DNA of 64,000 nt. Origin: Planctomycetaceae bacterium. Lineage in GTDB: Bacteria > Planctomycetota > Planctomycetia > Planctomycetales > Planctomycetaceae. The notes under the pieces were generated by a model. The model had not been told where the DNA came from, searched no databases, and saw nothing but the letters and a program-made list of their open reading frames with translations. Position numbers and translations under genes: made by a program. The number at the start of each line of letters is the position of its first letter. Position 1 is the stretch's first letter. The stretch is taken from positions 1 through 64,000 of the forward strand of contig JAKFUF010000045.1 of the NCBI GenBank assembly GCA_021732845.1. The letters run 5' to 3'. Positions 26,495-41,736 of the stretch are shown one piece after another.

Positions 26495-29400
26495 TCAGGT
26501 CTTCACGGCTTTCCGTGCCTCCTCCCAGGTCTTCTGCCAGCGCTCGGCTTCCTCGGGTTTGTCCCACGCCCGATAGAGTTCCACAAGCCGCTGGATGGCA
26601 TCGGTCAGGCGGGCCTTGAATTGAAGGGGGATCTTGGCTTCTCGTTCCTGGAGACCGTGATAAGCCTCCAGCAGCAGGGGTTCGGCGGCTTGGAAGTTTT
26701 TCTGGCCGAAGAGGCTCGCTCCCAGGAGGGATCGGGTGTTGAAACGGAGCCACCCCTCAGGGTCTTTCGCATCACGGATGAGCAGGCATTCCCGCAGGAG
26801 CAACTCGGCCTCCACATGCCGCTGCTGCAACAGCAGGTTCATGCCCAGGCCGGCCATCGCCGCCGCGGTCCGCAGGTCCGCATCGCCGAACTGCCGTCGC
26901 TCGTCAACGAGCATCTGCCGCCAGATCGTTTCGGCCAGCAGGAGCCGTCCAACGGATTCGTACAGGGTGGCGAGACCGCCGGGCAATGGGCGGAGGTTGG
27001 CGGGGACCGGGCCGTCGCGCTGCGACAGGCGGTCCAGAGCCTCGGCCAGCAGCGGGATCGCCTGCTCAGGCTGGCCAACATCGCGATGGAGGAATCCCAG
27101 GGTCTGCATGACATACAGGGTGTCAGGATGGTCCGGGCCGGGGTTCTCGCGGCGGAGGCGGAGCGTCTCGGCATACTCGCGAATCGCGTCCTCCCAGCGC
27201 TTCGCGAGGGAGTACCCATAAGCCAGGTTTTGCCGGCTGAGCACGGTCTGGACGTGGGCCGGCCCCTGCTGAGCCACGCGGAGCCGCAGGGTTTCTTCGT
27301 AGAGCGGCAGCGCCAGGTCGAGCTTGTTGGTCATCTGGTAAGCCACGGCGAGGTTGTTCATCGTGACGAGCGTGTCGAGGTGCATCCGCCCGAGCTTCTC
27401 CGCGCGGAGCTTCAAGGTCTCCTCGTAGATCGGAACCGCCAGGTCGTTTCGACCAACACGCACCTGTACGGCGGCCAGGTTGTGCATGCTCTGCAGCGTG
27501 GCGGGAGCATCGGCGCCGAATCGAACCTTGTGAATGGCGACGATCTCCTCGTGCAGCGTAACGGCCAGAGTTGGTTTTCCCGCCGCCTCGTACGTTTGTT
27601 GCAGGGCGATGAGGCTTGCAAGAGTGTCGGGATCGTTGGAGCCCAGCAGTTTTTTTCGGCCAGCCACAACCTGCTCCAAATGCGGCAGCGCCAGGTCGAA
27701 GTGTCCCAGGTACCGCTGGCTCTGTCCCAATCCGAACTGCGCGTTCAGTGTTTCCGGGGCCTCGGGACCGCGTTGTGCCACGAAGCCCGCGAAGGCAATC
27801 TCATAGGCCGCCAGGGCCTTGTCGTACTCCAGCAACGCCTGGTGGGCTTTCCCCACATCGTGGTGACTGCCAAGCGTGCTGAGATCGTCCGGGCCCAGCA
27901 CCTCGGTGCGAATTGCCAACAATTCCTGATCCAGCGCCAGGGCCTGGGCAAACCGCCCGGAAAAAAAGTGCGCGCCGGCCAGCCCCTGCATGCTGCCCAA
28001 CGTGAGAGTGTCGCGGGGGCCGAGAAACTCCCGACATTTGGCCAATGTTTGGTCGAACAGGGGAGTGGACTTGTCGTATTGTTTGAGCCACTGGTGTGCC
28101 ACCGCCAGTTCGTTGCGGCTGAAGAGCGACAGCGGATCGTCTGGACCGAGCACGCGCACGCGGCGGTCGAACACCTCCTGGTAGAGCAGCAGCGCCCGGT
28201 CGTACTGTCCGGCGGCGGACAGTGCCGAGGCGAGGTTGTTCATGCTGAGCAGTGTGGCCGGAGCGTCGATTCCCTCCGTCTCGCGGCGCTGCTTGACCAC
28301 CTCCTCGAATGCGGCGACCGACTGCGTGTACCGGCCAGCCGTGTGATAGGCCGTGGCCAGCGTGTCGGCGGCGTCCAGCGCCGCCGCGCTCGTCAGCCCC
28401 TGGTCTGCATGGTGGCGGTAGATTTTCTCGTACAGCTTCATCGCCTCATCAAATCTTTTGTCCGTCAGACAGGCTTGAGCGAGCGAGCCCGTGGCGGTCA
28501 GCCAGGCCGAACTCCCGGCGCCGCTGAGCCTCTGCAGGATCACCACCGCCTCTTCCAGCAGCGGGATGGCCTGGCTGGCCTTCTGCTGCGCCAGATAGAC
28601 CCGGGCCAAAAGCTGCAGGTCATCCGAGATGTTGAAGTCGGCCGTTCCCGCCGACTTTCGATGCACCTTGAGAGCGTCTTCCAGGAGTTGCGCCGCCTTA
28701 TCCAAATCTCCCTGAGCCTCGTAGGCTTGTGCCAAGACCTCGGCGGCGGTCAGCGTGGTCGCATCTTCGGCCCCCCACTTCGCACGGGATAATTCGAGGG
28801 CTTCCGTCAACTGGGCGATGGCCGCCTCGGTTTGCCCCGCCTGCCGCCGGGCATTGCCCAGGCCAATCATTGAGGCGACCGTATCGGGATGGTCGGCCCC
28901 CAGCTTCGCCCTGCGCAAGGTCATCGTCTTTTCGTACAAGTCCGCCGCCAGCTCCTCCTGTCCGCCTTCCAGGTACAGGAGGGCCAGATTGTTGTTCGCC
29001 AGCAGGGTATCTGGATGGTCGGCCCCCACGGTAAGTTTTTGCTGCTCGGCGACCTGTGTCATCAGCGTCGTGGCCTGCTCCAGATCGTTGAGCCGCCACC
29101 GGCACAAGGCCAGATTGTTCAGCATGGTCAGCGTGTCGGCGTCCTCCGCCCCCTCGTTGCGGAGGGTCAGTTGATAGGCCTCTTCCATCAGGGGCGCTGC
29201 GGCGTCGAACTTGCCTGCCTCGAACAGGGCAAACCCCAGATTGTTGATGCTGCTCACCGTGTCAGGATGTTCGGCACCCAGGTGGGCTCGGCGGCTGCGG
29301 ACGAGGCCTTCCAGCAGGGGCAGCGCCAGATCCCCCCGACCCACCTGCTGATGGGTCATCGCCAGGTTGTTGATGGCCGTCCAGGTTTGGGGATGGTCGT

Positions 29401-31591
29401 TCCCCCACTCCGCACGCATCCGCTCCACCGCCTCCTGGTTTAACGCCAGCGCCGCCTTCAGATTCCCCGCCTGGTATTCGGCGAGCCCCAGGTTGACCAT
29501 GCTGACGGTCGTTTCGCGGCTGTCCGTCACCTTCAGAGAACGCCTCGTCTTTAGCACCTCCGCGAGCAGCGGCAGCGCGTCCTGCAGGCGGCCGGCACCC
29601 ATCAGCGCCAGCCCGAGGTGGTTCATGGTCGTCAGCGTGGTCTCATGCGTCGGCCCGAGCTTGTCCCGCGCGACGATGTGGGTCTTTTCCAGCAGGTCAA
29701 CCGCCTCGTTGAAGTGCGACAGGGCCTGGTGGCTCGTCGCCAGCCCGTTGGCATTCTTCAGCGTGGCTTGATCCGCCTCGCCCAACTCGGCCAGCAGTGT
29801 CTTGCGGGCACTCTCATACAACGGGATCGCTTTTTCGTAGTGTCCCAGCCCGGCCAGAGCGTCCGCCAGGATGCCCTGCAGCTCCGCGACGATCAACGGG
29901 TCGCCCACCGCCTCGCCCGAAAGCTGGGCGGCAGCGGCATCAAGGTTTTCACCCAGTTCCACCTGCAGTGGCTTCGCCCCCTTCTCGCGGGAAAACGGGT
30001 CGAGGCTGCCAAACACCGAGGCCAGAATCTCGTTGCCCCGCTGAAGCTGCTCAAGCCGCCGCTGCGCCGAGTCGCGCTGCTGCTGGGCCTGACGCAGACC
30101 GACAGTGGTTCCGATGATGCCCGCAATCAGCGCCAGCCCGACAAGAACTCCGGCAATCACCGGTCCGCGGTGGCGGCTCAAAAACTTTCTGAACCGATAG
30201 CCGGCGGAGGGGGGACAGGCCTCCACCGCCTCGTCCGCCAGATGGCGTTCGATGTCGTGTGCCAGGCCGATGGCGGTTTCGTACCGGCGGGAGCGGTCCT
30301 TCTCCAGGCACTTCATCACGATCCAGTCGAGTTCGCCGCGCAGCAGGCGGGCCAGCTTGACCGGCTCGATCCGCCGCAGCGCCGCCACGCTCGCCAGCGA
30401 CTGGTGCGATCCGCTCAGCCGCGTGCTCGGCTTCTGTGGCTCATCCTCCCGGATGATCCGCACCATCTCCAAGAGCGCCCCGCGCCGCAACTGCTGCTTG
30501 TCGTGCGGCGTCGATCCAGTCAGCAGCTCATACAGCATCACCCCCAGTGAATACACATCCGAACGGGTGTCGATGTCCAAAGCGTTGAGGTCCGCCTGCT
30601 CCGGCGACATGTACTCCAACGTGCCGAGAATCTGCCCGATTTCCGTGAAATCCGCCTCGTCAGTCAGCGGCTGATGCAGCGCCTTGGCGACGCCGAAGTC
30701 GATCACCTTGGGGATTGGCCGGCCATCCTGCACGCAGACGAGGACGTTCGACGGCTTGATGTCGCGGTGAATGATCCCCTTCTGATGCGCGTGCTGAATC
30801 GCCTGGCAGACCGGCACGAACAGTTCCAGCCGCTCGCGCAGGGACAGACGCTGCTCGTCGCAAAAGCGTGTGATCGGAATGCCATCGACCAGCTCCATCA
30901 CAAAGTACGGCGTGCCGGCCGCAGTCTGGCCGCCGTCATACACGCGCGCGATGTGCGTGTGGTCCATCAGCGCCAGGGCCTGCCGCTCGGCTTCAAACCG
31001 CCGCAAGACTTGGACGCTGTCCATGCCCGGCTTGATCAGCTTGAGCGCCACCTGCCGCCGCACCGGCTCGGTCTGCTCGGCGATCCATACGCTGCCCATG
31101 CCGCCTTCGCCCACCTTGCGCACGAGGCAGTAAGGGCCGACAAATTCGCTCGGGGTCGCGTCCTGGTGGCTCCCCGCGGGTTGGGGCACCGCTGGCGGGG
31201 GCATATCCTGCGCCTGCACTCCGGGGAGGTAATTGATGGTTTCCGCATGCGGATCGGATGGGGCCGAGCTGCTGCCGGACCCCGACAGTTCGGCCTCAAG
31301 TTCCTTGACGGTCTCCCGGATCAGTGCGATCCACTCGGGAAACTGGTCCAGATAGCGGTTCAGGGGGACGGGAATTCCGCTGTGCAGGCGCGTCTCGACA
31401 TCCAGCCGCACCAGTTCCTCGGCCATCACTCTGCGGAGATGTTCGGGCACCGCCTGGACGATCGGCTGCAGCCCGTCCGCCGCCGCCACACTCCACGACT
31501 TGGCATACGCATCGCACACGGCGTTTACCTGCTGCAGGTCGGCCAGCGGCAGGGCGTTAAACGCAGAGAGTTCGTCGTTCGGCGGAGTCAT
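26495..31591 (-). CDS. Transmembrane Ser/Thr protein kinase with a large TPR sensor domain
   Basis: 1,698 residues. A ~150-residue planctomycete-type N-terminal region precedes a complete eukaryotic-like kinase domain (~153-430): glycine loop GEGGMGSV (161-168), Lys184 in VALKLIK, catalytic HRDIKPSN (275-282), DFG (298-300) and activation segment LEYMSPEQ. A single transmembrane helix (VIAGVLVGLALIAGIIGTTVG, ~477-498) leads to roughly 1,150 residues of kinesin-light-chain-type TPRs with the 42-residue period and LG-x-x-HPDTL motif. The topology suggests a cytoplasmic kinase and periplasmic TPR array. An ECF sigma factor gene lies upstream on the same strand, a pairing common in Planctomycetes, so signalling to transcription is likely but inferred. 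Confidence 0.93.
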   Translation of the reverse strand: MTPPNDELSAFNALPLADLQQVNAVCDAYAKSWSVAAADGLQPIVQAVPEHLRRVMAEELVRLDVETRLHSGIPVPLNRYLDQFPEWIALIRETVKELEAELSGSGSSSAPSDPHAETINYLPGVQAQDMPPPAVPQPAGSHQDATPSEFVGPYCLVRKVGEGGMGSVWIAEQTEPVRRQVALKLIKPGMDSVQVLRRFEAERQALALMDHTHIARVYDGGQTAAGTPYFVMELVDGIPITRFCDEQRLSLRERLELFVPVCQAIQHAHQKGIIHRDIKPSNVLVCVQDGRPIPKVIDFGVAKALHQPLTDEADFTEIGQILGTLEYMSPEQADLNALDIDTRSDVYSLGVMLYELLTGSTPHDKQQLRRGALLEMVRIIREDEPQKPSTRLSGSHQSLASVAALRRIEPVKLARLLRGELDWIVMKCLEKDRSRRYETAIGLAHDIERHLADEAVEACPPSAGYRFRKFLSRHRGPVIAGVLVGLALIAGIIGTTVGLRQAQQQRDSAQRRLEQLQRGNEILASVFGSLDPFSREKGAKPLQVELGENLDAAAAQLSGEAVGDPLIVAELQGILADALAGLGHYEKAIPLYESARKTLLAELGEADQATLKNANGLATSHQALSHFNEAVDLLEKTHIVARDKLGPTHETTLTTMNHLGLALMGAGRLQDALPLLAEVLKTRRSLKVTDSRETTVSMVNLGLAEYQAGNLKAALALNQEAVERMRAEWGNDHPQTWTAINNLAMTHQQVGRGDLALPLLEGLVRSRRAHLGAEHPDTVSSINNLGFALFEAGKFDAAAPLMEEAYQLTLRNEGAEDADTLTMLNNLALCRWRLNDLEQATTLMTQVAEQQKLTVGADHPDTLLANNNLALLYLEGGQEELAADLYEKTMTLRRAKLGADHPDTVASMIGLGNARRQAGQTEAAIAQLTEALELSRAKWGAEDATTLTAAEVLAQAYEAQGDLDKAAQLLEDALKVHRKSAGTADFNISDDLQLLARVYLAQQKASQAIPLLEEAVVILQRLSGAGSSAWLTATGSLAQACLTDKRFDEAMKLYEKIYRHHADQGLTSAAALDAADTLATAYHTAGRYTQSVAAFEEVVKQRRETEGIDAPATLLSMNNLASALSAAGQYDRALLLYQEVFDRRVRVLGPDDPLSLFSRNELAVAHQWLKQYDKSTPLFDQTLAKCREFLGPRDTLTLGSMQGLAGAHFFSGRFAQALALDQELLAIRTEVLGPDDLSTLGSHHDVGKAHQALLEYDKALAAYEIAFAGFVAQRGPEAPETLNAQFGLGQSQRYLGHFDLALPHLEQVVAGRKKLLGSNDPDTLASLIALQQTYEAAGKPTLAVTLHEEIVAIHKVRFGADAPATLQSMHNLAAVQVRVGRNDLAVPIYEETLKLRAEKLGRMHLDTLVTMNNLAVAYQMTNKLDLALPLYEETLRLRVAQQGPAHVQTVLSRQNLAYGYSLAKRWEDAIREYAETLRLRRENPGPDHPDTLYVMQTLGFLHRDVGQPEQAIPLLAEALDRLSQRDGPVPANLRPLPGGLATLYESVGRLLLAETIWRQMLVDERRQFGDADLRTAAAMAGLGMNLLLQQRHVEAELLLRECLLIRDAKDPEGWLRFNTRSLLGASLFGQKNFQAAEPLLLEAYHGLQEREAKIPLQFKARLTDAIQRLVELYRAWDKPEEAERWQKTWEEARKAVKT

Positions 31592-32140: not shown

Positions 32141-32797
32141 TCAACCGTCCTCTGTCTTGTCGCCCCAGACTTTGCGGATCTCCAGCAGTTTGCGGTGTAC
32201 GGTCCGGCGGGTGACGTTCAATTTGGAGGCGATTTCGATGGGGGCAAAATTCTCCAGCCGCAGTCGGGCGATCTCGCGGAGGGTGTCGTCGCCAAGCTGG
32301 CTCATCAGTCCGTCGCAGGTTTCGGCCACTTCACAGGCAAAGTCGGGCGTCGGCTCGCGGCTGGCGAGCATGTCGAGCCCCGCCCCATCGCCATCCAGAC
32401 CGTCAAAGCAGGCGCTGGCCACCGTCCGTTGAACGTCTCGTTTGGCCGCCCGCTCGTCCCGCAGCCGGTTCGAAATCTTCCGCTCGGCAATGACGACCAG
32501 CAGCCGCCACAGGCTGTCCCGGTCATCGAGCGCCGCCGCCCGCTGTTGCTGCACCGCGGCAAACAGGCTGTGAAAGGCGCTGTTGGCGACGTCGTCCTCG
32601 TCGTACACCCCCCGAATCCCGCGCGGGAGCCGACCGCGGGCCAATTGCGTGAGCCGCCGGCAAAAATGATCCCACAGCGGACCCGCCGCGGCGGCTTCGC
32701 CCTGTTGCAACTGCCGCATCCAAAGCGTGACGGGATCGTCGGGAGCCACTGTGGACACCGTAAGGACACGCTCGGCGAACGGCCCGGGTACAACCAC
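32141..32797 (-). CDS. ECF-type RNA polymerase sigma factor
   Basis: 218 residues. A sigma region 2 is seen at ~25-115 (TLWMRQLQQGEAAAAGPLWDHFCRRL...YDEDDVANSAFHSLFAAV...DRDSLWRLLVVIAERKISNRLRDE) and region 4 with a helix-turn-helix at ~170-212 (LRLENFAPIEIASKLNVTRRTVHRKLLEIRKVW). This is the planctomycete ECF group that lacks a classical anti-sigma factor and is usually paired with a Ser/Thr kinase. The kinase-TPR gene follows 549 bp downstream in the same direction. The true start may be internal (a GTG at the VSTVAPDDPVT segment), as the first ~14 residues look non-homologous. Regulation by phosphorylation is an inference. Confidence 0.85.
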   Translation of the reverse strand: MVVPGPFAERVLTVSTVAPDDPVTLWMRQLQQGEAAAAGPLWDHFCRRLTQLARGRLPRGIRGVYDEDDVANSAFHSLFAAVQQQRAAALDDRDSLWRLLVVIAERKISNRLRDERAAKRDVQRTVASACFDGLDGDGAGLDMLASREPTPDFACEVAETCDGLMSQLGDDTLREIARLRLENFAPIEIASKLNVTRRTVHRKLLEIRKVWGDKTEDG

Positions 32798-34764: not shown

Positions 34765-37700
34765 TCAGTTGGGATCACCAATCAAAATGAAAGCAGCCCA
34801 AAAGCGCGGGTGATCGAAAGGTTTGACCTGCCTGGGGTTAGCATTGGCATCAATGGTCGGAGCCACGATTTTCAGTGGCCGCTGATTCTTCGCACGGGAC
34901 ACGCTGTTCGTCAGGCCGGCCAGTTGCAGGCCGACTTCTTCCTGCGTCATGTTTCTCAGCCACGCCTTGGCTTCGGCGAGGGCGGAGGCTTTCGGCATTG
35001 GGCTCGCCAGTCCATCGCGTTTCCCCAACAGATTGCGATAGAAACGGTCCATGAGCAGCGCGGTGGCCCGGTCGTCGACTTCCCACAGCGACAGGCAGAC
35101 GCTGCGGCTGCCGGCCAGAAGGAATGCCTGGGCGAAGCCCAGCAAGCCGTCGCCACCACCTTCCCGACCCAATCCGGTCTGGCAGGCGGAGAGGGTGACC
35201 AGTTCCGTGTCGAGCTTCCAGTGCTCCAGTACCTCCCGCGCGGTGATCTGGCCGTTAATCCAAGGCTCTCCGCTGGGAGCAAATTCTTGAGTGTTGGGAT
35301 CGTCCTGCGCCAGGATCAAAGCCGAGTCAAACGCCCGAATGTTGTTCGCCGAACCGTGGCTCGCGAAATGCAGATACCGAAACTTGCCCAGTTGCCCGCC
35401 CGTGCGCAGCGCTTCGACCTGCGATTCGGAGGCCGCATGGTCGGCCAGCACGATTGCCTTCCCCGCGAACAGCTCGCTGAGCGTCTTGAGTTCGAGCCGG
35501 GTGCCGGGCAGATCGGTCCATTCCCCGCCCCGGCTGGTCAGCAGCTTGTCGATCTGCCGACGGCTGGCGATCGCCTGGGGAGCCGGTTCCCTGGCCAAAG
35601 CGACGCCGAGCTTGCCCGGCGCGAAGTCGCGCACCACCGGTTTCGCTTCGCCTTCGCGCCAAATGCTCACGGCGACAGTCTTGTCGTTGGCGTGATTGGC
35701 AACTTCCTGGGCGAGACCGTCCACGGTCTTCAGTTCGACGCCGGCATAGGACAGCAGCACGTCGCCCGACTGGACCCGGCCGTTCTTCTCGGCGTTGCCC
35801 CCGGGGACAACCTGCTCCACCAGCAGCCCGCCCGGAGGCAACTCTGTGGGGACCGGCTTTTGCGCCGTGTCGACGTCATAAAATGGATCGCCAAGCGCCA
35901 GCACTCCGTCCGACTTCGGCGGTGCCTTGTCCTTCAGCCGGGCCAGAAACGTGCCGGATGGGACGTAGCTGATGGTGTACCTGTCGGTCAGCACCTCGAT
36001 CGGAATGCCGGCCATCTCGTTGACCGCCACAACGTAAAGCTTCTTTACACCGTGAAGATGCTTTTCCAACGGTGCGATTCGCTGGTCGTAGAGTTGTTTC
36101 GCGAGTTTGACGATTTCCGCCTTGCTGGCGGTTCCCTGTCGCAGAAGATCTCGACATTGCTCCGCCAATTTATCGTCGTCAATTGTGAAACGCTGGCTTT
36201 CGCCACGCCCAGGCAACGGCTCGAAGTGTGGATCTTTCGTCCCTCGAAGCACGCAACCCCAATGTTCATTCACCCCGCCCGATTTCTCAGCAATGTCAAC
36301 CCAGGCGACAAAAGCTTCGTCCGCCGTTAGCGAATTCTGTATTTCCGTGAAAGTGGCCACCTCGCGGTTGCTCAATTCCACAGCGAACCTGTTCAGTTGT
36401 CCCAAAACCAATCTTCGCTCCGTTTCGAGCGATGCCAGCTCTTGCTTTTCAAGGTCCGACCGTTCATGGCGTGTGACCAGGTCCGAAATACGCGGTTGGA
36501 TGGCGGCTTGCCGGTTCGCGAGCAGGACACTTTCTCTCTCTTCGTCCGTGGTCAGTCTCGCACCGCGTCGGATGGCGAGTTCGTCGAGCAGGCCGCGAGC
36601 CAAATTGGATTCAAGTGATGTGAATGCCACTGCCGGCAATTTAAGCCGCACCTGGGTTGCGCTCAACAATGGATACGGATTGCGGCTGTTACTGACAGTG
36701 AAGCGCGCGGCGCCAGTGCCAATTGCCAGCAAACGACTGGCTTCACGGGAGTGGAGCCCCCTTAGCAGCATTGCCAGAGTCTCCTCAAGCTTATTTTGAG
36801 CTCGCAAATTGAAGGCCAGGTTCGTAAATGCTGAAGCGGTTTCCGGATGGCCTTCGCCAAGAACCCGCTGATAAAGAGATAATGCACGGTTGTAGTATGG
36901 TTCCGCTTCGGTGAATCGCCGCTGCGCGTTCAAGTTGAAGGCCATCTCAAAATAGCTGTCAGCGGTTTCGGGATGATCCTTGCCAAGCGACTGTTCACGA
37001 ACCGTCATGGCCAGCCTGCACAACGGCTCTGCCTCTTCGTACAGGCCTCCTGAGTTGAGAATGCCGGCGATTACGCTGTAACTGTGAGCGGTTTCGGGAT
37101 GATCCTTGCCAAGAACCAGCTCTCGGATGGCAAGCGACTTTCTGGCGAGCGCCGTGGCTTCATCACTCTTGTGTTGGGTATTTAGATTGACTGCCAGATT
37201 GGAATAACTTCTGGCGACGAAGGGATGATCGTCCGCCAGTGAGTTCCGCATGATTTCAAGGGCCCACCTCAGGATGGGTTCAGCCTCGGCGTGTCTGCCC
37301 TGCCCGCTCAGGTTATTCGCCAACCCACTGTATCCAATGGCGGTTTCAGAATGACCATTCCCGAGCGTCGCCTGGTAGATCTGCAAAGACTTCCTGTAAA
37401 GCGGCTCCGCCTCGAGGCATTTCCCTTGTGCGTCCAAGCTTCCAGCCAAATTGTTGTAGCTCTGCGCAGTGGCTGGGTGGTCCTCGCCAAACAGATTTTT
37501 TCGGATCGTAAGGGCCTTCGCATAAAGCGGCTCGGCATCGGCATGGCGACCCTGGGATTTGAGGTTGAATGCCGCATTATTGTAACTTGTGGCGGTCGTT
37601 GGATGATCTTCCCCAAGCACTGCCTTGCAGATTGCCAGGGCTCGCTGGAGGTGTGGCTCGGCTTCGGCATACTTGCCCTGAGAGTTTAGGTTTAGAGCCA

Positions 37701-38691
37701 TATTGTTGTAGATGTTCGCCACGGACGGGTGATTTTCTCCCAGCGTTTTCTGTCGGATGGCCAGTGCCTTTTTGTAAAGCGCATCCGCCTCGGCGTGCTT
37801 GCCGAGTTTATTCAAGTTTATCCCCAAATTGTTATAGCTTGTGGCCGTATGGGGGTGGACTTCTCCAAAAACCCTTTGAATGATCGACAGAGACTTTCGA
37901 AAATGAGGCTCGGCATCGGCAAATCTGCTCTGGCCATCCAAATTGAATGCCAGATTGTTGTGGCTTGCTGCAATGTGAAAGTGCTCTTCGCCCAGCGAAG
38001 ATTCACGAATCGCCAATGCGTTCTTCATCAGGGGTTCGGCCTCGAGGAACTTGCCTTGCGATTTTAAGTTGTCCGCCAGATTGTCATAGCTGGAGGCGGT
38101 GTCGGGGTGAGCCTCACCCAAAGACTGGCGATTGATTGCCAATGCCTTTCTGAAGTACGAGTCGGCCTCGGCATGTTTGCCCTGTGCATGGAGGTTCGTC
38201 GCCAGGCCGTCGTAGCTTGCAGCAGTTGTAGGATGGTTATCGCCAAGAAATTTCAGACTAACCTTCACCGCGGCTTCCCAAATCGGAATCGCCTCCAGAT
38301 ATTTCAGGTTCGATTCAAGTTCTTTCGCCTGACTGGCACTTTGCACCGCTTGCCGCCATTGTTCCCGTTCAGCCGAGGACAGCGCGGAGATTTTGGACAA
38401 GACTTGCAATTGCACTTTGGCATTCGCAGTCTCGTAATGGTCTTGGCCTTGAATGCGTTGTCGAATTGCCAGGAGAGCCTTCGCTGACTCGATGGCACTG
38501 TCGTAGGCGTCCTTTTGCTCACTGTCGTTGACCTTTTTTTGAAGCTCCGCGGCTGCCGTCGCATCGTCACCCTCCAACATTCGCTGCCATTGCGGTTTCT
38601 TGGCGAGATCGTCCTTCGGCAACTCCTGTGCGGAGAGAAGCGTCAATGTCCCAAGCAGTATTCCAGGCAGCAGCAGTGTCTTGTGAAGCAT
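34765..38691 (-). CDS. Secreted TPR-CHAT protease-like protein with inserted PDZ domain
   Basis: 1,308 residues from ATG 38691, which gives a signal peptide (MLHKTLLLPGILLGTLTLLSAQ); the frame has one earlier ATG at 38727 without signal. Residues ~149-652 are twelve consecutive kinesin-light-chain TPRs, each exactly 42 residues, with the LGEDHPTTATSYNN motif. A CHAT domain spans ~765-1305: EIQNSLTADEAFVAWVDI at its start, catalytic His in YLHFASHG (~1113), Cys in LSACQTGLG (~1168) and the terminal RFWAAFILIGD. Between the two CHAT halves, at ~945-1030, lies a PDZ domain (LLVEQVVPGGNAEKNGRVQSGDVLLSYAGVELKTVDGL). CHAT domains are caspase-like Cys peptidases, so this should be an exported regulated protease with both catalytic residues intact. 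The TIR gene lies 59 bp upstream in the same direction, probably an operon. Confidence 0.88.
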   Translation of the reverse strand: MLHKTLLLPGILLGTLTLLSAQELPKDDLAKKPQWQRMLEGDDATAAAELQKKVNDSEQKDAYDSAIESAKALLAIRQRIQGQDHYETANAKVQLQVLSKISALSSAEREQWRQAVQSASQAKELESNLKYLEAIPIWEAAVKVSLKFLGDNHPTTAASYDGLATNLHAQGKHAEADSYFRKALAINRQSLGEAHPDTASSYDNLADNLKSQGKFLEAEPLMKNALAIRESSLGEEHFHIAASHNNLAFNLDGQSRFADAEPHFRKSLSIIQRVFGEVHPHTATSYNNLGINLNKLGKHAEADALYKKALAIRQKTLGENHPSVANIYNNMALNLNSQGKYAEAEPHLQRALAICKAVLGEDHPTTATSYNNAAFNLKSQGRHADAEPLYAKALTIRKNLFGEDHPATAQSYNNLAGSLDAQGKCLEAEPLYRKSLQIYQATLGNGHSETAIGYSGLANNLSGQGRHAEAEPILRWALEIMRNSLADDHPFVARSYSNLAVNLNTQHKSDEATALARKSLAIRELVLGKDHPETAHSYSVIAGILNSGGLYEEAEPLCRLAMTVREQSLGKDHPETADSYFEMAFNLNAQRRFTEAEPYYNRALSLYQRVLGEGHPETASAFTNLAFNLRAQNKLEETLAMLLRGLHSREASRLLAIGTGAARFTVSNSRNPYPLLSATQVRLKLPAVAFTSLESNLARGLLDELAIRRGARLTTDEERESVLLANRQAAIQPRISDLVTRHERSDLEKQELASLETERRLVLGQLNRFAVELSNREVATFTEIQNSLTADEAFVAWVDIAEKSGGVNEHWGCVLRGTKDPHFEPLPGRGESQRFTIDDDKLAEQCRDLLRQGTASKAEIVKLAKQLYDQRIAPLEKHLHGVKKLYVVAVNEMAGIPIEVLTDRYTISYVPSGTFLARLKDKAPPKSDGVLALGDPFYDVDTAQKPVPTELPPGGLLVEQVVPGGNAEKNGRVQSGDVLLSYAGVELKTVDGLAQEVANHANDKTVAVSIWREGEAKPVVRDFAPGKLGVALAREPAPQAIASRRQIDKLLTSRGGEWTDLPGTRLELKTLSELFAGKAIVLADHAASESQVEALRTGGQLGKFRYLHFASHGSANNIRAFDSALILAQDDPNTQEFAPSGEPWINGQITAREVLEHWKLDTELVTLSACQTGLGREGGGDGLLGFAQAFLLAGSRSVCLSLWEVDDRATALLMDRFYRNLLGKRDGLASPMPKASALAEAKAWLRNMTQEEVGLQLAGLTNSVSRAKNQRPLKIVAPTIDANANPRQVKPFDHPRFWAAFILIGDPN

Positions 38692-38750
38692 GGTGGTCTC
38701 GGGATGCAAGTCGTGTTGGATTTCCACTGTGTCAAATCGCGGCAGTTTGT

Positions 38751-39938
38751 TTACTTTTTGGTCGCCACGGCGAAGCCATTACCGGCAGCCACGGTCGCGC
38801 TCGATCGGCCCTTTAAATATTGCATGACGTTCACGAACCGACCCAGCACTCCGAGGGCGGCTTCGCCTTTGGCACGGGTAGTTCCGTGTGCGCTCTTTGA
38901 GTCGATCCAGGTGCCATCGTGGACGAAGACATTTCCATTTGGACTTGGAGTGGGCACCCATGCGGTTGGCTTCTCCTCGGCCCACCGCTTGAAGGGGGGC
39001 AGAGGTCGATCCGAGGCGGCGACGGCGAAGACCCAGAGGCCCGCGCCCTCCTGCAGGCCGTAGTGCTGATCGAGTTGGTCGCTCGCAGGATAGCGAATTC
39101 GATCGCTCAGAACTGGCGGCTGGTCTTCGGTGTCCGGGGAGATCAGCTCCATCACGCCATCGGGACGAAACGCAACGAGGTACGCGTACGCGGGACGCGA
39201 GAGTTCGACATCGAGCGTAACCTGGTCGCCCACATGCGCGCCAAAGGACTGCTCACCCAGAACACCTTCCGCCGTGGCAGTCTCTTCGCTGGTTTTCGCG
39301 AAATGATGGATGCGGAAGGATTTGACCCGAAGGTCTTCAAGCGGTGACGTGCCGTTGGGCCAGAGCGTGTAGCACAGAGCGGCCACGATTAGCGCCGTCG
39401 TCGGCAGGCCGATGAGCAGCATCCAGCGTCGAGGCTGCCGCGGGCGGACGAGGGAGGCTGGCGGATGACTTGCCGGTCGGTCATTTTTCAGGGCAAGGAC
39501 CAGTTGTGCCGCGGTTTGCTCGGGTGAAAGGTGCCAAGCATCCAGCCAGTGCGCCGAAGACAGGTGCAGTTCCAGCGCCGGTCCCGGAGAAATATTTTCA
39601 AGGCGGACGGGGATGACGCGTTTGCCCTTGCTGGTGGCGCGCTCGACTTCATGCCGGACGTGAACCGAAGCGTTTGAACTCGCCGACAAGAGCAGCACAA
39701 TCGTCGCGGTGCTTTCAATGGCGCGAATGATCGCCTCGGCGTAATCGCTTCCTGGAATCACATCGCGGGGAGCGATCCAGCAGGCGATGCACTGCTCTTC
39801 AAGCAGCAGGCACAGCTCTAACGCCCGATTCTTGTCCGATGACGCATAGCTCAAAAAAACCTGCTTGGCTGTTGTGGCCCGGCGGGGTGCAGCCTCAGGT
39901 TTGGTTGCAGCCTCAAGTCCATTGTTTGGGACGATCAT
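38751..39938 (-). CDS. TIR domain protein with transmembrane helix and DUF4384-like extracytoplasmic domain
   Basis: 395 residues. Residues 25-150 are a bacterial TIR domain: QVFLSYASSDKNRALEL, CIACWIAPRDVIPGSDYAEAI, ATIVLLLSASSNASVHVRHEVERA with the probable catalytic Glu97, and RVIPVRLENI. Such TIRs usually cleave NAD or make signalling nucleotides. RPRQPRRW precedes a single helix (~173-192, WMLLIGLPTTALIVAALCY), so by the positive-inside rule the TIR is cytoplasmic and the rest periplasmic. Residues ~205-395 resemble DUF4384 (VTLDVELSRPAYAYLVAFRPDGVMELISP; LSDRIRYPA; LWVFAVAASDRPLP), a domain commonly found with CHAT or caspase-like proteins. The CHAT gene starts 59 bp downstream. Confidence 0.85.
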   Translation of the reverse strand: MIVPNNGLEAATKPEAAPRRATTAKQVFLSYASSDKNRALELCLLLEEQCIACWIAPRDVIPGSDYAEAIIRAIESTATIVLLLSASSNASVHVRHEVERATSKGKRVIPVRLENISPGPALELHLSSAHWLDAWHLSPEQTAAQLVLALKNDRPASHPPASLVRPRQPRRWMLLIGLPTTALIVAALCYTLWPNGTSPLEDLRVKSFRIHHFAKTSEETATAEGVLGEQSFGAHVGDQVTLDVELSRPAYAYLVAFRPDGVMELISPDTEDQPPVLSDRIRYPASDQLDQHYGLQEGAGLWVFAVAASDRPLPPFKRWAEEKPTAWVPTPSPNGNVFVHDGTWIDSKSAHGTTRAKGEAALGVLGRFVNVMQYLKGRSSATVAAGNGFAVATKK

Positions 39939-40223
39939 GGAGCATGCCCTGTCGCGGAGCCACCGAGAATGAATCTACTATGGAGTGCGGCAGCGTACAA
40001 TGAACGGAACTCATATCGCCTACGATAGGCCACGCGGGCCAGGACGGCGGCGGCATGGTGTCCACTTCTTGGGAGCGTTCGTCCAGTTCCACCAGGATCT
40101 CCAGCATCATCATCGGCATGGTGGCACCGGCGGGCCAGCAGACGAGAATCACTCAGTTTGCCGCAGGCCGGCTTGTTTGACCGTGCGAGCGGAGAACGAA
40201 TCTGCTCTTCAAACGCGATTCGT

Positions 40224-40576
40224 GGCGTTTCGGCCGCGAGGAAGTTGAGGAGTTTGGCCAGTTCGGTGGGGCGGGGTTCTCTGGAGAGGGCCAAGAGCCA
40301 GACGTGGTGGATTTGGGTGGCGGGGTCGGGGCCGGCGTCTTGGGCGAGGCGTTCGGCGAGGGCTTTGGCTTGGCGGTTGACGAACTGGCCGTTGAAGAGG
40401 GTCAGGGCTTGGGGAGCCACGCTGGTAACCTGGCGCTGGGCGGCGGTGCGGGTGGTGTCGCAGAGGTCGAGGACTTCGAACATCGGCACCATCAGGGAGC
40501 GTTTGGTGAGGGCGTAGATCGTGCGGCGGAGGCGTCGCGCTCGTCGAACGGCTTCCAGATGCTGTTGGGGTCGCTG
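40224..40576 (-). pseudogene. Degenerate partial copy of a DUF1553 gene 3' end
   Basis: This stretch aligns with 41846-42199 of the DUF1549/DUF1553 gene at an offset of 1,622 bp and about 90% identity, encoding RRTIYALTKRSLMVPMFEVL, DTTRTAAQRQVTSVAPQALT and LFNGQFVNRQAKALAERLAQ. A one-base deletion near 40530 breaks the frame at the upstream end and the true C-terminus is missing. The surrounding 39.9-40.8 kb holds no intact gene. Together with the intact copy it brackets the HEPN and KOW-like genes. Confidence 0.8.
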
Positions 40577-40786
40577 CAGATTGTTCATTGATTCAAGCCC
40601 GGGAAGAGTCCGCTTTGCCGGCCATGATGGACGGCCTACAGCCTGCTGCAACTGACATCACCAAATGACCACTCTCATGGGCAGGAGCGCTGGTCAATGC
40701 GAGTCGGGCCTGGCTGGCGCTGGCAGCCTTGAGACGAAGAGAGTTCGTCGGCTGATTCAACAGAGTCGCGTTGGTGAGCGAGACGG

Positions 40787-41086
40787 TTACTTAACGGTGG
40801 AACCCGTGGCTTCGGACGGCGCGTCTGGCCTTTCCGCCAGCTTGTTCCGTTGAAGACGCAATTTGGCGCTGGTGGGCGGGAGGGCCTCCAATTGGTCCCC
40901 GCGAACTTCGATGTAGGTGACACTGGGCTTGCGCTGAACCAGGACACGATAAACCTGTGATCCACCCGGCCCCAGCGCGCCACGCAGTTCCACAATGCGG
41001 CCGGGATTTCCGGCGTAATGGCGAATTCTCACCCGGTCGCCGATGTTGAATGCTGGCGAGATGTCGGCCTGCTTTTGCTTCGCCAT
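40787..41086 (-). CDS. Small KOW/SH3-like protein next to the HEPN gene
   Basis: 99 residues from ATG 41086, chosen because AAGGAGA lies ~9 bases upstream; the frame runs up to 41116. Residues ~9-60 read FNIGDRVRIRHYAGNPGRIVELRGALGPGG in pieces (IGDRVRIRHY, NPGRIVELRGALG, YRVLVQRKPSVTYIEVRGDQLEAL), typical of a KOW or SH3-like beta-barrel. The C-terminal tail is basic and Pro/Ser-rich. It starts 32 bp after the stop of the HEPN gene and is probably co-translated with it. It could be a nucleic-acid-binding partner or antitoxin; that is inference. It has no predicted signal peptide. Confidence 0.65.
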   Translation of the reverse strand: MAKQKQADISPAFNIGDRVRIRHYAGNPGRIVELRGALGPGGSQVYRVLVQRKPSVTYIEVRGDQLEALPPTSAKLRLQRNKLAERPDAPSEATGSTVK

Positions 41087-41118
41087 GGTGCATGTCTCCT
41101 TGCTCACGGAATCCAAGG

Positions 41119-41667
41119 CTACCTGCGGAGAATCTTCAGCAGGTGATTGTACATGATGTCGTCAAGCGATGTTGCCAATCCATTGCAGGAACTCCTCCAT
41201 TTTTGAATGGCGGCGAGGGACGGAAGACCGGTTGAAGGAACCGTGCCATGATGCGCGGCAATGTTCCTCCAGCGATTCAACTCGCCGAGCTCAGTCAATC
41301 GGGCCGCGTTTGCAGCGTCATGCGTGACCATCTGCAACGGAAAGCCAAACCGATTGAAGTCCTTTTTCAAGTTTTCGATGTTGGGATTGCCATGATCCAG
41401 GGCTCGGCCGGCCGTAAACTGCTGCTGGACTAATACCTGGAGTGTAGGCCTGACTCTGGACGCCACCAGTTGACTGCATTCGCTGTACAGGTCGCGGCAA
41501 TAGCCTTGGAAATGCGCGGATAGCAGGAGAATGACCCCGCGTATGTTCTCGTCGACCAGTTTATGATTTGGGACTGCAAGGGTCATTGAGGTAAGGCACT
41601 GCATCTCAACCTCATTCAACCTTGAAGCCCGATCGTTCACCCAAACAGCATACGAAGCCGACGGCAT
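41119..41667 (-). CDS. HEPN domain protein, probable RNase toxin-like
   Basis: 182 residues from ATG 41667, which is preceded by GGGAGG four bases away; a TTG at 41685 is the only earlier start. The protein is mostly helical. Residues 134-140 read RNIAAHH, fitting the R-x4-H active-site motif of HEPN ribonucleases (Arg134, His139), within LNRWRNIAAHHGTVPS. The N-terminal part (DENIRGVILLLSAHFQGYCRDLYSEC) resembles the RiboL-PSP/HEPN or RAMP-associated HEPN class. HEPN proteins act as RNases in toxin-antitoxin, abortive infection and CRISPR systems. It is followed by the KOW-like gene and flanked by direct repeats of the DUF1553 gene end, suggesting a mobile two-gene cassette. Confidence 0.7.
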   Translation of the reverse strand: MPSASYAVWVNDRASRLNEVEMQCLTSMTLAVPNHKLVDENIRGVILLLSAHFQGYCRDLYSECSQLVASRVRPTLQVLVQQQFTAGRALDHGNPNIENLKKDFNRFGFPLQMVTHDAANAARLTELGELNRWRNIAAHHGTVPSTGLPSLAAIQKWRSSCNGLATSLDDIMYNHLLKILRR

Positions 41668-41736
41668 GGCCCCTCCCGAAGCCAAGTTTCTGGAATGTTC
41701 AAATCTCTCTGGCTCATAGGTCGAGATCTATCCACA

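Follow-up and report, generated by a model that had tools for sequence, protein, structure and literature searches.

Several described systems share part of the design of the gene pair reported here, which lies in a 64,000-nucleotide stretch of Planctomycetaceae DNA (the window) and consists of a membrane-anchored TIR protein (P0002) and a TPR-CHAT protein (P0001). The CHAT fold of P0001 is shared with craspase Csx29 and with separase, which match our model at Z 27.8 and 24.9, respectively; unlike both, the window has a signal-peptide-like leader, a PDZ within CHAT and a membrane partner. In Myxococcus, the CHAT of DdvA is periplasmic. DdvA resembles P0001 in its TPR/CHAT-like fold (Z 19.6) and sets a precedent for transmembrane signalling with a CHAT fold; however, it is one chain with a sigma-binding part, whereas the window has a separate gene and a TIR. 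DUF4384 is tabulated with 23 cyanobacterial orthocaspases (PMC8283722), which, as tabulated there, combine it with a caspase-like domain in one chain, in contrast to the two genes with CHAT of the window. Exchange of the same kind, between TIR and kinase, has been described for NPCBM domains fused to a TIR or a S/T/Y kinase as alternative effectors on one adaptor (PMC8195603); the adaptor domain differs, and DUF4384 does not appear in that text. Finally, Thoeris ThsB shares the TIR, for which P0002 gives a weak ThsB_TIR match in Pfam (1.3e-5), yet the window TIR is membrane-anchored with an outer domain and has a CHAT partner. No ThsA was found among those window neighbour ORFs scanned with Pfam, and against the PADLOC defence library P0002 and P0001 had nothing beyond weak TIR and TPR matches.

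The nearest counterpart that we identified is a pair of planctomycete genes encoding kinase-TM-DUF4384 and TPR-CHAT proteins. The window shares its TM-DUF4384 part, its TPR-CHAT partner and their adjacency on one strand, but carries a TIR in place of the N-terminal Ser/Thr kinase. Our literature search, which was thin on subscription journals, returned no description of this pair or of its TIR form.

Architecture of the gene pair

Both genes lie on the minus strand, the likely ATG of the TPR-CHAT gene standing 59 bp past the TIR gene, on contig C12 (the window being its positions 1-64000) of a genome of 9.25 Mb in 262 contigs that its relatives place in the class Planctomycetia. Their features are as follows.

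38751..39938, minus strand: P0002, TIR-TM-DUF4384 gene, 395 aa (ORF and Pfam)
39501..39860, minus strand: TIR domain, aa 27-146 (Pfam TIR_2, 8e-22)
39648-39650, minus strand: conserved TIR glutamate E97 (alignment)
39363..39425, minus strand: single transmembrane helix, about aa 172-192 (hydrophobicity and model)
38754..39344, minus strand: DUF4384 unit, predicted extracytoplasmic beta sandwich, aa 199-395 (Pfam, relatives and model)
34765..38691, minus strand: P0001, TPR-CHAT gene from its likely ATG (codon 13); the longest ORF, 1320 aa, starts at GTG 38727
38632..38691, minus strand: signal-peptide-like leader (crude leader rules)
36778..38370, minus strand, limits approximate: TPR array of about twelve repeats (Pfam TPR_10, 5e-128)
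34774..36108, minus strand: CHAT domain, aa 874-1318 (Pfam CHAT, 3e-60)
35641..35829, minus strand: HtrA/RseP-like PDZ inside the CHAT domain, aa 967-1029 (PDZ_6, 1e-6; PDZ_2, 1e-5)
35356-35358, minus strand: CHAT H1124, numbered from the GTG (1112 from the ATG)
35182-35184, minus strand: CHAT C1182, numbered from the GTG (1170 from the ATG)

The architecture proposed in a sequence-only reading of this DNA is real: P0002 is a TIR-TM-DUF4384 protein and P0001 a leader-TPR-CHAT protein, and the coordinates, strands and gap of the adjacent pair all agree with that reading. Its order of TPR, CHAT and PDZ needs correction, in that all three elements are present but the PDZ is inserted within CHAT. 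The Pfam domain matches of both genes are far from chance.

The TIR glutamate claimed as intact is indeed so, E97 being a glutamate in 28/28 aligned TIR rows (the window gene counted twice). P0002 thereby has both marks of a TIR NADase, the TIR domain and the catalytic glutamate, and its TIR may cleave NAD. One strong hydrophobic segment (near aa 171-194) follows, as had been proposed, and because RPRQPRR precedes it the positive-inside rule places the N-terminus inside; the TIR would lie in the cytoplasm and DUF4384 outside. The Pfam core of DUF4384 covers aa 236-312 (4e-6), while aa 199-395 represents the part conserved among relatives.

The signal peptide attributed to P0001 holds in part: the leader, MLHKTLLLPGILLGTLTLLSAQ, is signal-peptide-like and is called by a relaxed rule, but it carries Leu at -3 and is missed by a strict rule (both rules being crude). 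The protein is a candidate for export. No helix in P0001 scores above this leader, and Pfam gave no anti-sigma match. The CHAT dyad, previously put at His ~1113 and Cys ~1168, is intact at the slightly different positions listed above, and both residues are invariant in 15/15 aligned CHAT rows, window included. With a CHAT fold and a His-Cys dyad, P0001 has the marks of a caspase-type protein and is a putative protease. CHAT was matched at one other place in this genome, L031:4506-8795, where a TPR-CHAT ORF truncated by a contig end adjoins a protein that appears WD40-like by eye.

The structures matched by the CHAT model (pLDDT 81) include Csx29 (339 residues, 3.2 Å), separase (325 residues, 3.2 Å), DdvA (309 residues, 3.5 Å) and gingipain (Z 18.2, 276 residues, 3.8 Å), and the inserted PDZ matches an RseP-type PDZ (Z 12.1, 77 residues, 1.7 Å). 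DUF4384 is modelled as a beta sandwich with pLDDT mostly >75; Foldseek gave no match for it at E<=0.001, and its VIA matches, at Z 7.1 or less, are generic Ig-like sandwiches from which, therefore, no ligand can be read. The TIR portion of the P0002 model is poor. When solved structures were searched by sequence, none was found for P0002; for the CHAT alignment, the matches listed (at least 60) cover the PDZ stretch, and the C-terminal CHAT part gave non-significant matches only.

Conservation of the pair in Planctomycetia

Searched against 59 relatives, P0002 matched larger ORFs through its C-terminal half; in the neighbourhoods of these ORFs a kinase-TM-DUF4384 gene adjoins a TPR-CHAT gene. 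Approached from the CHAT side, a scan of named genomes gave 30 loci, eight of which have kinase-DUF4384 beside CHAT (L046, L047, L048, L050, L053, L054, L057 and L058, in part the same places as other fetched loci); their hosts are Fimbriiglobus, Gemmataceae, Isosphaeraceae and other planctomycetes. The kinase gene of L059 ends in a diverged DUF4384-like stretch, recognized by eye only. Two loci (L055 and L056) hold CHATs of the window clade with no adjoining DUF4384 gene. Another four (L049, L051, L052 and L060) are truncated close to their upstream side, L061 comes from a contig of 3.6 kb, and DUF4384 was matched in none of the more distant CHAT loci (L062-L075). The Isosphaeraceae MAG Centralia_MAG_412 contains six loci with clade CHATs (L051, L054, L055, L056, L057 and L060), some with no DUF4384 gene nearby, a local expansion.

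A DUF4384 model applied to 397 Planctomycetia genomes, with the best few candidates per genome scored as in all alignment-query searches, found 43 places in 34 genomes. The tally was made on the 37 strong places (E<=1.1e-25), one of which is the window. It leaves out six weaker places, among them G551 and G560 (sequence not retrieved) and the second piece of the broken L142 gene; the remaining three (L147, L148 and L149) each carry a kinase, one of them next to a CHAT. Within the strong set, the N-terminal half is a kinase in 34 places (33 in the same ORF, one in an adjoining ORF at L122), unreadable in two (L140 and L142) and a TIR in one, the window. Of the 37 places, 33 have a TPR-CHAT ORF, or a TPR ORF truncated by a contig end, within 2.5 kb on the same strand; CHAT is visible in 28 of these, and five show TPRs alone at a contig end. 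The four places with no same-strand partner are L120, where a TPR ORF lies on the opposite strand, L138, where the contig ends, L142 and L146. CHATs of the window clade are rare (9/392 phylum genomes at 1e-40), and by our own estimate chance adjacency with DUF4384 genes is therefore negligible. Of 170 genomes searched from the family of the window, seven have a DUF4384 match, the six others all being of kinase type.

A signal-peptide-like start is common on the CHAT partner. Under the relaxed leader rule it was called in 22/26 TPR+CHAT ORFs >850 aa versus 6/41 control kinase ORFs, and under the stricter rule, which misses the window, in 20/26 CHAT ORFs >900 aa versus 5/47 kinase ORFs; both rules are crude. 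Judged by sequence, the unit conserved across genomes is a membrane DUF4384 protein with an apparently exported TPR-CHAT protein, and not TIR with CHAT.

The sequence-only reading had proposed that TIR-TM-DUF4384 be sought beside CHAT genes in other planctomycetes. The co-occurrence survives for the TM-DUF4384/TPR-CHAT pair, which recurs in Planctomycetia, but not for the TIR form, which was found in none of the other genomes searched, the other readable N-terminal halves being kinases. Neither P0002 in the 59 relatives nor the DUF4384 model in 392 genomes of the phylum, 397 of the class and 170 of the family brought up a second TIR-TM-DUF4384 among the best few candidates per genome. With the same limit on candidates, the window TIR brought up no second TIR-DUF4384 across the 397 genomes of the class, and plasmids searched by tblastn with P0002 gave no match. 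Eleven further TIR loci (L157-L167) hold kinase-TIR or other fusions, several assigned by eye (FGE, WD40, FHA-like), with a DUF4384 match in none. On present data, TIR-TM-DUF4384 with CHAT is rejected as a conserved system, given the single case and the kinase in the other readable forms.

Origin of the TIR domain

In a DUF4384 tree of 37 rows the window falls in an 18-row group (96/85) and also in a 12-row group (87/80, below star level), the remaining members of both being kinase-type or unreadable; in a CHAT tree of 28 rows it falls in a 17-row group (100/99). DUF4384 and CHAT distances correlate over 24 pairs (r 0.75, with 0/5000 permutations as high), a correlation that we read as co-inheritance, not as proof of contact. 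The window TIR is 65-66% identical to the TIRs of two kinase-TIR-nSTAND1 proteins of its own genome and at most 57% identical to any other TIR listed in the search of 397 genomes; the TIR tree joins it with these own-genome TIRs at 85/79, below star level. The two proteins (L040:7381-11826 and L039:2-2275) are near-identical to each other; the complete one, on contig C21, ends in an FGE domain, and the other is cut by a contig end. dN/dS is about 0.16 for the TIR pair, 0.27 for DUF4384 and 0.26 for CHAT, with high dS. No kinase remnant was found upstream of the TIR gene, and the kinase matches in the window all lie within a separate kinase-TPR gene.

Since both DUF4384 and CHAT fall within groups of kinase-type relatives and the TIR is nearest to own-genome kinase-TIR-nSTAND proteins, these data point to a kinase-to-TIR swap. 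The simplest history would be that the kinase of the receptor module gave way to a TIR of the kind found in kinase-TIR-nSTAND proteins; this direction, and any date for the event, are our reconstruction.

Neighbouring genes

ECF-sigma-like ORFs occur in 15/42 fetched loci (window not counted); by coordinates, at least 10 immediately precede the kinase gene on its own strand and three are divergently oriented, and a Pfam scan of ten of these 15 loci gave sigma-factor matches in 10/10. Sigma control by such kinases has precedent. No sigma gene adjoins the TIR/CHAT pair in the window. Some 2 kb past CHAT, an ECF sigma factor (32141-32797, minus strand; Pfam 5.5e-25) precedes another kinase gene, which encodes a kinase-TPR protein of 1698 aa (26495-31591, minus strand). 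On the other side of the pair, the region 40215-41685 includes a RiboL-PSP HEPN gene (41119-41685, minus strand) and a 109-aa ORF (40787-41116, minus strand), both flanked on one side by an intact DUF1549/DUF1553 gene and on the other by a partial copy of that gene comprising ~360 bp of its 3' part at 92-94% identity. Elsewhere, two CHAT genes accompany one receptor, in tandem in L047 and one on each side of kinase-DUF4384 in L117, L123 and L124.

Discussion

At the level of sequence, our analysis shows the domains, their order, the conserved pairing, the kinase/TIR difference and the intact catalytic residues; export, membrane orientation, the way the signal runs, proteolysis and catalysis by the TIR are predictions. 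We consider that the window holds a domain-swapped planctomycete cross-envelope receptor module with a constant outer half and an exchangeable cytoplasmic output, a reading to which we give a probability of about 0.5. The presumably exported CHAT and the outer DUF4384 are kept while the cytoplasmic domain varies, which is most naturally read as one fixed input feeding exchangeable outputs. The constant outer half would comprise the exported TPR-CHAT caspase-like protein and the DUF4384 of a one-helix membrane protein; the exchangeable inner half would be a Ser/Thr kinase in relatives and, in the window, a TIR resembling those of own-genome kinase-TIR-nSTAND proteins. Using its TPRs and PDZ, the CHAT protein would bind a ligand or else a protein that is foreign or damaged; it would then engage or cut DUF4384, whose change of shape or clustering would be relayed across the helix to switch on the TIR. 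The activated TIR would in turn cleave NAD or make a nucleotide signal, TIR-TIR docking being a third candidate for its output. Against this reading stand the single TIR case, the 4/37 strong places with no same-strand neighbour, the clade CHATs of L055 and L056 with no adjoining DUF4384 gene, the distant CHAT loci L062-L075 that lack a DUF4384 match, the miss of the window leader by the strict rule and the TIR-tree join below star level.

The direction of the signal across the envelope is probably inward, and it could feasibly run the other way, with DUF4384 sensing or anchoring at the envelope to control an exported CHAT effector and the kinase or TIR serving only for tuning. The invariance of the CHAT catalytic residues would suit such an effector, as would the loci with two CHAT genes per receptor. 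However, the variable part is the cytoplasmic domain and ECF-sigma-like genes stand beside many kinase versions; both indicate inward signalling, and we regard the reverse direction as unlikely.

That the closest TIRs found belong to PK-TIR-nSTAND1 proteins of the same genome invites a further thought, namely that the window TIR is a docking domain and not an enzyme, recruiting these proteins by TIR-TIR contact and so keeping a kinase output in two pieces. The similarity may nevertheless reflect domain origin alone, and E97, kept in the window and its relatives, fits an enzyme; we hold the docking role to be improbable. A Toll-like relay, in which the exported TPR-CHAT would activate a one-helix TIR receptor via DUF4384 and the TIR would recruit kinase-TIR-nSTAND by TIR-TIR contact, seems equally improbable. 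Were it true, what had been one receptor kinase would now be two proteins, a TIR receptor and a kinase that bears a TIR.

The example of Myxococcus DdvA, whose CHAT sits in a transmembrane anti-sigma factor (according to structure titles), raises the idea that CHAT acts with no cleavage, as a periplasmic adaptor or ligand trap docking on DUF4384; since H1124 and C1182 are invariant, loss of catalysis is not favoured, and we consider the idea improbable. Least probable of all is that the TIR-DUF4384 fusion arose in assembly or is a lone gene in decay, as the single case, the 262 contigs and the duplicated gene fragment just upstream might suggest, for the frame is open, the gene is internal to a 107,856-bp contig, and the TIR is 64-66% identical to its paralogues at the dN/dS given above.

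Returning to the receptor module with exchangeable output, its separate parts are known, and we found no description of such a module with a kinase-to-TIR swap in the literature searched. Nor did that literature offer a match for the receptor layout itself, in which a membrane kinase has an exported-looking caspase-like protein as its partner; the DUF4384 unit, matched in 34/397 Planctomycetia genomes, is in strong cases nearly always of kinase type. The window would represent a natural exchange of kinase for TIR on one receptor, making the interchangeability of outputs testable, and its gene pair may offer a simple bacterial parallel to Toll-type receptors.
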